The translations under genes were made by a program, and so were the position numbers. From Orbilia blumenaviensis (lineage: Eukaryota > Ascomycota > Orbiliomycetes > Orbiliales > Orbiliaceae), in contig JAVHNS010000002.1 in assembly GCA_036872755.1 (NCBI GenBank), forward strand, positions 1,550,001 through 1,614,000: a stretch of 64,000 nt of DNA, written 5' to 3'. Positions 24,166 to 62,268 of the stretch are shown one piece after another (position 1 is the stretch's first letter; every line of letters starts with the position of its first letter). The notes below the pieces were generated by a model. The model saw only the letters and a program-made list of their open reading frames with translations. It was not told the DNA's origin and ran no database searches.

Positions 24166-25491
24166 CTACAGCATTTCTTTATATGGTACTCGGCTCAAAT
24201 CTTCCATTGGCAGGTCAGCCCTCATCTTGGCACCGACCATCTCCAGTTTACCCTTCACCATTTCCCTGAGCATGAAGTTGACAGCGCAGGGAATTCCTAG
24301 CTCTGCACCTTTCTTCACAATATATCCGTTGATATATTCCACCTCTGTACTCTTACCACTGCGTACATCCTGCAGCATGGAGCTTATATTTACGGACGTC
24401 TTCTTTGCAGTCCCGATAACGACTCTCTCCAGTCTTTCCGGTGAGAATCTTATATCTTTTGATGGTACATTATTTAGTTCTGGCATTGCAGCGATGACCT
24501 TTGCGACTTCGAAGAGGATCAACCGCAGCATCCTCGATATCGGAAAGTTATATACCAGCTGTCCGTTATAACAGTTGAACATAACAGATAGCGGGTTGAT
24601 GACTGCATTGACGGCCAACTTTTCGAGTTGTACTGCTAGTATCTCCGGGTAGCTTGTAATTCCGTAACTTAAATCACGGCACTCTAGTAGTGTTTCAATG
24701 AAAGGTCTTGTTTCCTGAGGGAACGATAGTATCGTAGGTGTAGCCACGGAATATGATTCCCCTTCCGGTGGGGGGTCCCGGGGCACCACCGACATATCGA
24801 TTTTGCCATATCCGGCGTGGATGACGTTGAACGGTCGAAGCGTATGTGCACCATGGCTAGTTATCCCGATTACCATATTTGGCCTGGTCTTTGCATCCGG
24901 GAAAATAGTCGAATTAATTTCCTCCATAACGCCCATGCCGTTTTGTAGTACCATTATGGTGCTATCAGGTGATAGCCTATCCTTGATACTCTCGAGAGCC
25001 GGGATTGTCTGGTGTGCCTTTGTCGTGACAATAAGGTTTTGGATCGGTTTAGCAGCGGCCGAGGCCCAGGATTCGAACATGGCACGGTCGGTGACTTCAT
25101 GTTGAAATCCGCCGACGAGGGAGGCTATACGGTTCCGCTCGACGCGGATGCGGTTGCTACATCCTCGGAATACCTGTTGGACCTCGGCTTTGTGGAGGAG
25201 GAGGGTTACCGGTGGGGGGTTCGCGAGAGAGCGGAGCGAGTGGGCGACAAGGCAGCCGATGTTGCCGGATCCGAGAATGTGGATGCGCGGGAGGATGTTC
25301 ATGGTTTGAGTGGTGGCTGTGTGATCGGTAGGCAGGCCATTGTTTCCTTCTCCGTATGAAGCCAATATGTAGGCTGGTGGGGCGTTAGACCATGATGTAG
25401 AGCTTGGTGGTGATGGTGGGGTGAAGTGTCGTTTCGAGTCGTTGAAGAGTGAAGGTTTGAAGTCGGGGCAAGCAAGAAGAAGAGGTCGCAT
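24166..25491 (-). CDS. 2-dehydropantoate 2-reductase (ketopantoate reductase)
   Basis: A single exon encodes up to 441 aa. The NADPH-binding Rossmann motif is IHILGSGNIGCLVAHSL, followed by LIVTTKAHQTIPAL, the VLQNGMGVMEEI block and GITSHGAH. The C-terminal ApbA_C domain shows LEKLAVNAVINPLSVM with the catalytic-type Lys, then SSMLQDVRSGKSTEVEYINGYI with the conserved Glu-Asn region. The enzyme reduces 2-dehydropantoate to pantoate in pantothenate and coenzyme A synthesis. The Rossmann fold begins at Met64 (ATG at 25302); the 63 residues before it are Pro/Ser-rich and lack helix pattern, so translation may begin at 25302. The long start leaves only 131 nt to the divergent LRP1 start. Confidence 0.9.
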   Translation of the reverse strand: MRPLLLACPDFKPSLFNDSKRHFTPPSPPSSTSWSNAPPAYILASYGEGNNGLPTDHTATTQTMNILPRIHILGSGNIGCLVAHSLRSLANPPPVTLLLHKAEVQQVFRGCSNRIRVERNRIASLVGGFQHEVTDRAMFESWASAAAKPIQNLIVTTKAHQTIPALESIKDRLSPDSTIMVLQNGMGVMEEINSTIFPDAKTRPNMVIGITSHGAHTLRPFNVIHAGYGKIDMSVVPRDPPPEGESYSVATPTILSFPQETRPFIETLLECRDLSYGITSYPEILAVQLEKLAVNAVINPLSVMFNCYNGQLVYNFPISRMLRLILFEVAKVIAAMPELNNVPSKDIRFSPERLERVVIGTAKKTSVNISSMLQDVRSGKSTEVEYINGYIVKKGAELGIPCAVNFMLREMVKGKLEMVGAKMRADLPMEDLSRVPYKEML

Positions 25492-57181: not shown

Positions 57182-59286
57182 ATGGGTCGGCCACGGGTAC
57201 GTTCAGGACCTGTCTTCCTACTTTTCATGGAGCCTTTTTTTTTTTTTTTTGTTTCGTCATTTCTTTCTTCGATCTTTACCGTTGTTGTCTTTGCATGAGA
57301 GCTAACCTTTTCTCCCACCTTTTTGTTGCTACTTTTAGTTAATTATCCTTATTCGACACGCCCAGAGCGAAGGCAACCGTACGTCTCCCCTTAGCTTTGT
57401 CGATACTATCAAGTATCCATACTCTCTGTTATCTGGATCTAACTCGAGCCCTTCTTCACTCCTACGTTTTATGACGATAGAGAACAAAGCGATCCACCAA
57501 ACCATCCCAGATCACCGAGTCAAACTCACACAGTTCGGCCATGAACAAGCTCGTGCGGCTGGCCACCGGTTAAAGGACATCCTTCTACCTGAGGATACTT
57601 TACAGATCTACACTTCCCCATACAGGAGGACAAGGGAGACGACTGCCAATATTGTTGAGAGTTTGGGGGAGGATTGGAAGCATAAAACAACGGTATATGA
57701 AGAGCCGAGGATCAGAGAACAAGGTTAGTTATGCTCCCCTAGGTTTCTTTTTTGTATTTTGTCTTTAGGATTCCTTTTTTTTTTTTTTTTTTTTTTGGCG
57801 GGATGAAATGGCATGCTAACCCTCTGGCTGTGAAGATGTAATAGGTTTCCTCCAATACTGGTCTGGCGATTTTCGCTATGGTTTTCTTACCAGAATGGAT
57901 CAGAGATACTAACGGAGGTAAAAAAATCTGTATAGTTCGGAAACTTCCAAGGATGCTCGGCATATCAAGAAAGAATATGGCAGGAAAGAGCCGCTTACGG
58001 TCATTTGTGGGTGTTTCCCTTTAGCCCCCCTCCGCTTGTTTTCTATCTTCGTCACCCGATTGGCCTTCCGCTTTTTTTTTATATTACCCATTTTACCGAC
58101 CATTTTCGTTCGGGTTGCGCAATTGCATGGAGCTAACCATTATCTACCGGTATCGTGATACAGCTTCTACCGAATCCCTAATGGTGAGTCGGCAGCAGAT
58201 GCGTATGACCGTGTAAGCGGATTCAATGAAAGTCTATGGCGTCAATTCGCGGAGCCGGATTGTCCAAGCGTTATTATCCTTGTGACACACGGGCTTATGA
58301 CGAGGGTGTTCTTGATGAAGTGGTATGTTCTCTCTCTCTCCCCTGTATACCTATTACCTGGCTCCGGGGAATAATTAACTAACCTATATTGTCACACCAC
58401 AGGTATCGTAAGTGGATAACCTATTATAGATATCTACCAAAGATAGCAACCAACTAACGGCCCCGATCGGGTGGAAAAAACAGACTACACCGTCGAAGAA
58501 TTCGAAGACTGGATGAACGTCGAACACTGTCAATTCGTGGTCATGCGGCGTAACGAAAAGGGAAAATACGACCTCGAAACAAAACTACGCACATGGACCG
58601 AATACGACCGCGAGCAAGCCGAAGCTGCGAAGAACGATCCCAACCTGGCTGCGCAGCGTGCGGCGAAACAAAAGAAGTTCCAGTCACTTAAGAGGAAATG
58701 GGGTGGTTGTCCGGATGGGTGTACGCACGGAGCGCAGATGGCGGTTCAGCAGGTTACTGCGGCGGCGGCTCCTAGTAATAGCAGTGGTGGGGGACATAGT
58801 CATAGTCAGCATCAGCATCAGTCTATTGCGTCGGTGATCGATCAGCATGATAAGGAGGCGATTGAGAAGGCTCTTGCTGGGAATTTGTGCTCGAACTGTG
58901 GGCATGAGGTCAACAGGATCAAGATTAGTAGGAAAATGTCGAGGCCAGTGGTTCGGGTTGAGCCACCGTCGGCTATCGATAGTTCTTCTGATGAGGAGTG
59001 TAGGACAAGCAGCGATGGGAAATTACACAGCGGTATTATCAGAGGAAGGGATGGCGGCGGCAGCAAGAGTGGATTCAACAGCGACTACGAAGCAGAAGAC
59101 GAAATTGATAGTGAGAGGGAGAAACAAGAACTCAATGAGGAGAATTTTAAGTTGTTGCATGCAAAGACCGAAAAGCTAGGGGACATTAAGAGCGACTCGG
59201 AGTGGTCGAGGGGATCGCAGCCAGACTCTGAGCCCGGCCAGAACGGATTCGTCGTCAACAAGGGAAAGGGCGTTTCGAAGACGTGA
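57182..59286 (+). CDS. Histidine phosphatase (phosphoglycerate-mutase family) with disordered tail; 2-nt and 5-nt exons
   Basis: Exons 57182..57196, 57339..57378, 57481..57723, 57836..57837, 57936..58006, 58164..58322, 58403..58407 and 58484..59286 give 445 aa. Domain: LIILIRHAQSEGN holds the phospho-accepting His in the RHG-type motif; TSPYRRTRETTANI, EEPRIREQDFGNFQG and ILVTHGLMTRVFLMKWYH complete the fold with the second His. The last about 200 residues are disordered and acidic, with a CxxC pair (CSNCGHE) and His-rich stretch. Relatives include fungal Det1-type broad phosphatases; the substrate is unknown. Exon 57836-57837 (AT) turns G into GAT for the Asp of QDFGNFQ; exon 58403-58407 (GTATC) completes Trp-Tyr and starts His of KWYH. 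Without these two exons the conserved blocks are out of frame. Confidence 0.85.
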
Positions 59287-60027: not shown

Positions 60028-62268
60028 TCACTTGTTCTCGAAGTGCTCTTCAATCCTCTCAACCAGGTCTGCTTTCTTTCCAGAGGCGGACATGCCCTTC
60101 GAAACCAGCCAGTCCTTTAGTACTGCTACCGTTAACTGTTTAATATATACGTTAGTCATTGATACCCTTTTCTCCGCTCATTCACAGAGTCCTGAATTAA
60201 ACGAACCTTATTAAGCGTATTTTTATCATATGCCGCTTTGATTTCCTTATCCGCATCACCAGGTCCAGCATCAGCGTCCTTCTTCGCCTTCTTCGCTGCC
60301 GCCCCACTAGCCGAATCCCTCCCTCTCTTAGTCCCATGAATCTCCACCTGCGCCGGTTTCGTCAACCTGAAATCCGCCATGGCCTGGGCCAAAGAATCCC
60401 CCCAATCCCTAATCATCTGTCCCGCATGCTTCTCAATGTTTTTATACTTCGGCTCCGTCTTATCTTCGAACTCCTCAGGTAACTCCTCTTCCAACGCGAT
60501 AGCTTCCAGAACTTTATAATGCTTTTGTAATGCAGGGTTTGGGTACTTTTCCGGTATGTAACCCCTCGGCATGTGGAGTTGACGGATTACATCTTGCATT
60601 CGGTCGATCAGATGGTTTGGAGCTACTATGTGTGGAATTTCTGGGTTTTGACGTATGTCGTCTACGAACGGGAGGGGGATTAGGAACATTCCCTGCGGTT
60701 CGAGGGAGGGGATTATAGCTGTCATTACTGGTGCTGCATTACGTCTTGCGACGAACCACGCCAGTCCCATTAACTTGCTTGCTATGAGTTTGTTTCTTAA
60801 TGCGGCGAAGGTACGGGTTGATCCCGTGTAGTCTTCTTCGCTGGGGTATATAAACGTAGAACTTCGCATGTTGTGCCAGAATTGGAGTTCGGATTGCGGT
60901 TTGAACCCCAGTATGCGTAGAACGGGATCACCGAAATTTCGCATCTGTTTGAAGTCTTCGTCGCTGAAGGTGACGGTTTCTCCGCCGAATTTGTAGGCTT
61001 TGCGGATTCGGTCGGGTGTTACCTCTTGGGCTGTTTCTTCGACCATGCGGGTTGTGGTGCCTTTTACTATTTGTAGTTTTTCGCCTTGTTCGTGGATGTA
61101 GTGTGATCTTGAAGGGGTTACACGTTTGTATAGCAAAAATCCCTTGATGCCGATGGTTAACCCCCTTCCTATCTCCATTTTTAAGGTGAATAATGCACGC
61201 CGCGGCGCTTGTTTGGCGGTTATGGCGGACATCATTTGGTTATAACGGCTTTCTGCGTCGGTTGCCTTTGAGACTTCTTCTGCATCTGGTAGGTTTTCGG
61301 TTGTGTCTTCGCCTGTGTCGTACATTATGTCGGTGTAGAAGAGGGTTTTGTCGAATTGGTGGGTTGGGGAGGAGATGAAGAAAGGTTCGATGCGGACGCC
61401 GAGGTCGTAGAGGTCCCGAGCACGGGTTTGGGCGGATGCGCGGGCGGATTTGTCGGTTTCTGGGTTGTCGTTGTCGGTTATTATGAAGAGGCGGCGGGAG
61501 TTAAAGTTGGCGGCTCTGTGCAAGATGATATTTTTAGTGACTGCCCTTCAGAGGTATGGTTATGGGGAGGGACTTATGGAGAGGGCGTACTTTGTGGTGA
61601 AGAGGTGGTTTGCGGCGAAGAGGACGTTCGCCATGCTGGCGGGTTTCTTCGACGGCGTGAGGATCTCGGAAAGTTCGTCGGGGTCTGTGATACTTCGAGA
61701 TTAGCCATTCCCGCTCTGCTCTTCTGATGATGTATGAAATTGACAGATGTACATACTATCAAGCAGGTATTTTAATTCCTTAATACTCGGTGCATCCGGT
61801 ATATCCAAATCCATCAACAAGTAGCAATTCGGATAGCTAATATTGCTTGACCCTTCGCCGTACTTCGTCTGTTCGGTGCCGAACAGGAGGATACCCATCA
61901 TATCATTGGGAGTAGATATGATACGGTTCTTGAGAACTGCTTCAGCACATCGCAATGCTGCTTCAGCGCTGCTGTATCTTGGCTTTGAATGTCTGGATTT
62001 CTTCTTTCTGGACCCGCCGCCTTCGGCATCCATGTCATCGTCTTGGCCTGGGGGCGCGACCATGGAGTTTGAGACTTCGATGGCGAAGAGGGTGGCATCT
62101 TTCAGTGCTTGGAAATCCTAATACATTATTATTATTGGCATATTCGATATGGTATTATATAGCTATCAGGAAGCTGTTGGTTTAATTACCTACCGTCTCG
62201 TCGCGGCCGTCATCGTCATCGTCATCAGCGGCATCCGCGCCAGGGTTCCACTTCTTATCTTGAGACAT
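60028..62268 (-). CDS. KU70: Ku70, ATP-dependent DNA helicase II 70-kDa subunit
   Basis: Complement exons 62194..62268, 61757..62117, 61591..61684, 60207..61515 and 60028..60135 give 648 aa. An acidic start (DADDDD-type) leads into the von Willebrand-like domain ([49 protein letters not shown]). The beta-barrel core shows [38 protein letters not shown] and [19 protein letters not shown]. The final exon encodes a SAP domain ([20 protein letters not shown], then [10 protein letters not shown]). Ku70 pairs with Ku80, encircles DNA ends, recruits non-homologous end-joining factors and protects telomeres. All five exons are in phase; branch sites such as TGGCTAATC are visible. Confidence 0.95.

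Follow-up and report, generated by a model that had tools for sequence, protein, structure and literature searches.

A putative two-nucleotide exon in a predicted histidine phosphatase gene of Orbilia blumenaviensis and its relatives

A predicted histidine phosphatase gene of Orbilia blumenaviensis appears to contain an exon of two nucleotides. In the reading we favor, at a probability of nearly nine in ten, two ordinary GT–AG introns of 112 and 98 nt flank the dinucleotide AT, which would complete an aspartate codon inside a conserved motif. The gene occupies 57182–59286 on the plus strand of the window, that is, of the whole 64,000-nucleotide stretch of contig JAVHNS010000002.1 that was analyzed. 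It comprises eight exons, with a fault-free translation of 445 residues, laid out as follows:

57182–57196, plus strand, exon 1 (MGRPR; homologs start MGRPRLI)
57197–57338, plus strand, intron 1, GT–AG with CTAAC
57339–57378, plus strand, exon 2 (LIILIRHAQSEGN, containing an RHG-type motif)
57379–57480, plus strand, intron 2, GTACGT...GATAG with CTAAC at 57439; its removal gives SEGNQNKAIHQ, as in relatives
57481–57723, plus strand, exon 3, ending in phase 1 with CAA G (PRIREQ), read directly
57724–57835, plus strand, intron 3, 112 nt, GTTAGT...TGAAG with CTAAC at 57816–57820; acceptor also used in public model TWF730_005276
57836–57837, plus strand, predicted exon 4, the 2 nt AT, completing the Asp codon G/AT of REQDFGNFQ; the sole frame-restoring GT–AG solution
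57838–57935, plus strand, intron 4, 98 nt, GTAATA...TATAG with TACTAAC at 57907–57913; acceptor also used in TWF730_005276
57936–58006, plus strand, exon 5 (FGNFQGCSAYQERIWQERAAYGH)
57936–57951, plus strand, stretch lost if the rival in-frame acceptor CCAAG/GATGC (57951/57952) is used, with the outcome REQGCSAY
58007–58163, plus strand, intron 5, GT–AG with CTAAC
58164–58322, plus strand, exon 6 (FFYRIPNGES... FLMK)
58323–58402, plus strand, intron 6, GT–AG with CTAAC
58403–58407, plus strand, exon 7, the 5 nt GTATC (CACAG/GTATC/GTAAGT), a second micro-exon
58408–58483, plus strand, intron 7, GT–AG with CTAAC
58484–59286, plus strand, exon 8, the C-terminal part and stop

All seven introns are GT–AG and each holds CTAAC once, with 17–39 nt between the branch A and the acceptor; as a background, CTAAC occurs 9–48 nt upstream of 106 of the 3926 AGs (2.7%) on the plus strand of the window. 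The first-pass annotation was right to number the block ending at 57723 as exon 3, because a further intron (57379–57480) splits the block before it. This intron measures 102 nt, or 34 codons, and stays open in frame if retained. The minus strand next to the phosphatase gene carries, at 60028–61547, two open frames (49 and 463 aa) with a putative resemblance to Ku70.

The case for the tiny exon begins with a frame that does not close, as the first-pass annotation had pointed out. Exon 3 ends in phase 1 with CAAG at 57723, followed from 57724 by the donor GTTAGT, and conserved coding sequence resumes in frame at 57936 with TTC GGA AAC, directly after TATAG; joining 57723 to 57936 gives a frameshift and a stop after 128 aa. 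The TAG of TATAG is itself an in-frame stop directly before 57936, so that no bases can be added from just upstream and the plain join is two bases short. Within the 212-nt gap lies GTGAAG/AT/GTAATA, with AT at 57836–57837, and splicing in AT makes GAT and restores REQ-D-FGNFQ; the Asp is, as had been expected, the residue of the family, found in 224 of the 227 non-Orbiliales proteins among the matches listed. When all pairs of sites were enumerated (both introns at least 40 nt, stop-free), AT was the sole frame-restoring GT–AG micro-exon of any length in the gap, so the frame needs it and offers no alternative micro-exon. Complete GT–AG introns with branch sites lie on both sides. The CTAAC of the first half was correctly described as 17 nt from the acceptor (counted from the branch A) and is located at 57816–57820 rather than 57815–57819, and the TACTAAC of the second half is present at 57907–57913 at a distance of 24 nt rather than 22 nt. 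The observation of the AT in the 57724–57935 gap is thus confirmed, and the branch sites support reading the two halves as separate introns.

The inner sites look weak, with an AAG acceptor and a GTAATA donor that has no G at +5. To rate the splice sites, introns were predicted ab initio across 264 kb, which returned three candidates with an order-4 model and two in another run; codon bias was too low. A search based on open flanks and site patterns found, for strong donors, 38 candidates (12 in a reversed control) and, for strong acceptors, 90 (39 in the control). This was too sparse or noisy for score percentiles, and the acceptor tally alone was used. Acceptors of the 19 intron candidates of at most 130 nt were TAG (9), CAG (7), AAG (2), and GAG (1); since the four candidates of the reversed control in this size range comprised two AAG as well as two GAG, the sample does not establish AAG acceptor use in this genome. 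Among noncanonical borders, inspected by eye only, an intron with AT as its last two bases would yield REQ-E-FGN; we rejected it because a very rare border is needed. A search of the genome for further copies of the gap, as an introner-like family would have, found besides itself only an 85% match on one contig (C1), over gap positions 20–73 including the poly-T. Intron 3 contains a run of 22 T at 57775–57796.

Chance was assessed with 5000 dinucleotide shuffles of the 212-nt gap, requiring both introns to be at least 45 nt and, as the branch-site criterion, CT[AG]AC 8–45 nt before the new acceptor. An Asp-restoring AT or AC exon appeared in 2.3% of the shuffles (0.18% with the branch site), any stop-free 2-nt exon in 19.5% (1.0% with the branch site), and any frame-restoring micro-exon of 2–20 nt in 68%. 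Openness alone is therefore weak evidence, and the weight of the argument rests on the restored Asp, the branch site, and the relatives.

Judged from its sequence, the gene product is a DET1-type branch-1 histidine phosphatase. The branch 1 motifs are found in IRHAQSEGN (RH[AG]), REQDFGNFQG (the Glu of E-x-x-[FY]-G), and VTHGLM (the second His, THG); RH[AG], this Glu, and the second His presumably have catalytic roles. With AT included, the translation scores 104.3 bits against Pfam His_Phos_1 (PF00300; cut-off 21.7), falling to 53.1 for the frameshift, and the named relatives listed are acid phosphatase DET1, histidine phosphatase, phosphoglycerate mutase-like, and hypothetical proteins. In an alignment with the solved relatives 1fzt and 3f3k, made with a translation still containing intron 2, the FGNFQ residues fall beside the Glu of their E-x-x-[FY]-G-x-x-[QE]-G segment. 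A search of the genome with Pfam PF00328 was uninformative, as this model represents the wrong branch of the superfamily.

The same gene requires another very short exon downstream. The 5-nt GTATC at 58403–58407 is needed for the tryptophan–tyrosine–histidine junction, is flanked by introns of 80 and 76 nt whose sites resemble the consensus, and if omitted ends the protein at residue 176. KWYH(Y/F)TVEEF, as the correct splice would give, is present in 6 of the 13 Orbiliales models among the matches listed; the O. oligospora P0121 and A. megalospora P0123 models have KWYRK, as if reading through the GTATC donor.

The public annotation of O. blumenaviensis splits this one gene into two wrong pieces, one with an out-of-frame tail and one with an out-of-frame head. 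Both TWF730_005276 (148 aa) and TWF730_005277 (297 aa) could be reproduced letter for letter from the window. The former uses the acceptors before 57836 and 57936, exactly as the 2-nt exon needs, but takes a cryptic donor at 57861; the latter starts at 58236 in the wrong frame. Among the open-licence papers listed, none was found that names Orbilia blumenaviensis or TWF730, nor one with the word microexon together with Orbilia or Arthrobotrys.

Public models of related species fail at the same junction. Our comparison drew on two lists of 120 protein matches, the best of 1856 and of 899 respectively, many of them cluster representatives; these 240 proteins comprise 13 Orbiliales by name and 227 others, and the junctions of the relatives are deduced from the proteins. 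Among these matches, REQDFGNFQ is present in 224 of the 227 non-Orbiliales proteins, with a close variant in the other three, so that the stretch is contiguous in all of them, and in none of the 11 Orbiliales models (seven species) that span the junction, P0008 and P0023 being excluded because they begin downstream. With AT included, the spacing from REQ to YRIPNG is 26 residues, the same as in 109 of the 111 others in the first list (best 120 of 1856); in the remaining two, one or other anchor motif could not be located. The Orbiliales models read across the junction as follows:

A. flagrans P0001 and O. oligospora P0121 (TWF788): REQ-GCSAY
O. oligospora P0122 (TWF191): REQGELLVAIPFAIKGCSAY, with GCSAY continuing after read-through residues
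D. dactyloides: REQGLYYLRDARGIYR-FGNFQ
O. brochopaga: REQGTLYPMATIM-FGNFQ and REQ-DKIW
D. stenobrocha: REQDVR-FGNFQ
A. megalospora and O. blumenaviensis: REQDVIGFLQYC
O. oligospora P0005 and P0006: exon 5 in wrong frames

In three species, O. blumenaviensis, A. megalospora, and D. stenobrocha, the models have D at the position of the AT exon and then residues foreign to the family: DVIGFLQYC is common to A. megalospora and TWF730_005276, and D. stenobrocha has DVR and then FGNFQ. This common fault points to a genuine exon of some age that annotation software has overlooked, and the arrangement is probably common to the nematode-trapping fungi of the Orbiliales.

The strongest competing explanation, which we nevertheless consider very unlikely, is a single intron spanning 57724–57951 and ending in CCAAG/GATGC. 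Such an intron keeps the frame without any micro-exon, and its product, REQGCSAY, is the exact reading of the A. flagrans and O. oligospora TWF788 models, TWF191 also continuing with GCSAY. The price is the six residues DFGNFQ, which are contiguous in every one of the 227 other proteins among the matches listed and adjoin the Glu of the E-x-x-[FY]-G segment in 1fzt and 3f3k; their in-frame loss lowers the Pfam score by 15, to 89 bits. Moreover, FGNFQG is still encoded in the D. dactyloides, O. brochopaga (P0003), and D. stenobrocha models and, by inference, in O. oligospora, and the CCAAG is 40 nt from the branch A, behind the TATAG (57935) at 24 nt.

That two bases are missing from the assembly at the 57935/57936 acceptor, the true gene having one intron, would explain the frame in one genome without special splicing. 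The two wrong-frame O. oligospora models bear on this directly. A DNA sequence that satisfies both P0005 and P0006 allows FGNFQGCSAYQERIWQERAAYGHFFYRIPNGESAAD in the remaining frame, matching the window at all 36 residues. Within the first 23 residues, where both models bear, 20 are fixed by them, including GNFQGCSAYQERIW; the first F and most later residues are allowed but not forced. Shuffled targets, 300 in number, served as a control and never came below 25 mismatches of 36. P0005 joins CAAG straight to TTT with no base between, which would place its acceptor at the equivalent of that of intron 4 and leaves the same two-base shortfall; since the O. oligospora models imply it too, the shortfall is not the error of one assembly. 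The read-through pattern GGMLTFC of P0006 has its best fit in the gap at 57807–57826, where it covers the CTAAC and misses 3 of its 16 specified bases (the runner-up misses 6), but this lends weak support because position 25289 of the window fits equally well. Given the O. oligospora shortfall, the D followed by nonfamily residues in A. megalospora and D. stenobrocha as in O. blumenaviensis, and the failure of all 11 spanning Orbiliales models of seven species among the matches listed, an assembly or sequencing error is scarcely credible.

We judge it just as improbable that AT is skipped and the frame restored by ribosomal +1 frameshifting at CAA-G-TTC, or that the gene is decaying. Programmed frameshifting is known in filamentous ascomycetes from PaYIP3 (PMC3777964), yet at this site it would lose the Asp, the 445-codon gene has no other frame fault, and the amino acids of exon 5 are preserved in relatives. 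No intron-free paralogue or second copy was found in the genome itself, the four matches being exons of this gene. A stwintron, or another nested complex intron, leaves nothing in the mRNA. Nested introns spliced one after another are known from Ascomycota (PMC9024468 and PMC5639578, the former likewise stating that a stwintron leaves nothing behind), but here two bases must stay for the frame and both halves have complete sites, making this explanation the least probable of all, at a near-negligible level.

If AT is included in the mRNA, as the restored frame leads us to infer, introns 3 and 4 would be removed one after the other, by intron definition rather than exon definition, because simultaneous binding of sites only 2 nt apart is improbable; a study of Arabidopsis APC11 argues likewise (PMC4674806). 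Were intron 3 removed first, ACAAG-AT/GTAATA would remain as a normal donor; were intron 4 removed first, GAAG/AT-TTCGGA would remain as a normal acceptor. Since exon 3 and intron 3 both end in AAG, AT would stand behind AAG in both orders, and either order would present an ordinary second substrate.

As to origin, one protein reads straight through REQDFGNFQ: P0124, from a 711-base ENA contig and counted above among the non-Orbiliales, falls with the Orbiliales in a 25-row tree (97/96), though its branch is long. It suggests that the ancestral gene was intron-free at this junction, with the placement unsure. Two introns may have been gained two bases apart, or a single intron may have lost two acceptor bases and a cryptic AT been taken up; loss at the acceptor is the origin that Nelson and Syed propose for Fusarium (PMC12940212).

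The view of the first-pass annotation that two nucleotides are at the lower limit for an exon is outdated: exons of 1 nt backed by RNA evidence are reported from two plant genes, APC11 and VPS55, and from CYP621A of Fusarium. The plant exons were confirmed by RNA-seq, RT-PCR, and protoplast assays (PMC4674806, PMC8831610) and the Fusarium exon is backed by RNA reads (PMC12940212). CYP621A is close to our case, being in a filamentous ascomycete and having exon phases that fail to join inside a conserved motif, an over-long apparent intron with AG/N/GT inside, a gene assembly problem, and a 1-nt exon shared by orthologs of many species; it differs in its AG/G/GT, 1 nt, and P450 product, against AG/AT/GT, 2 nt, and a histidine phosphatase here, and in its RNA reads, our exon being predicted from sequence (PMC12940212). 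APC11 and VPS55, in plants rather than a fungus, resemble our case in an ultra-short exon between two complete introns that is absent from the annotation (widely conserved in plants in both cases), and in the sequential removal proposed for APC11; the VPS55 donors are GTRAGT, against GTAATA here (PMC4674806, PMC8831610). The Xlr2 microexon of Trichoderma virens also changes the protein of a filamentous fungus when included, and its inclusion, as a point of difference, depends on glucose (PMC11121469). Stwintrons share with the proposed AT arrangement the sequential removal of two U2 introns at one position in Ascomycota, except that the internal intron of a stwintron interrupts a splice signal and nothing is left, whereas here two bases would be retained (PMC5639578, PMC9024468). 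No 2-nt nuclear exon in a fungus was found among the listed titles and opening abstract lines of the open-licence literature.

A bolder idea, to which we give little credence, is that the exon is an old splicing gate of the Orbiliales, its inclusion turning the phosphatase on and its skipping yielding a frameshifted message for decay, and that the two very short exons of this gene are signs of a lineage where such exons abound unnoticed. Should RNA confirm the two-nucleotide exon, it would be common to several fungi of one order, with a 5-nt exon in the same gene. It offers one shared cause for the faults of all 11 junction-crossing public models found, and this misannotation over seven species, together with the 5-nt companion, is what it would add to the known 1-nt exons. 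It would also support the sequential removal of neighboring introns in genomes with short introns, in which the size of an exon may be of no consequence, and the gene may serve as a small natural substrate for testing the order of intron removal.
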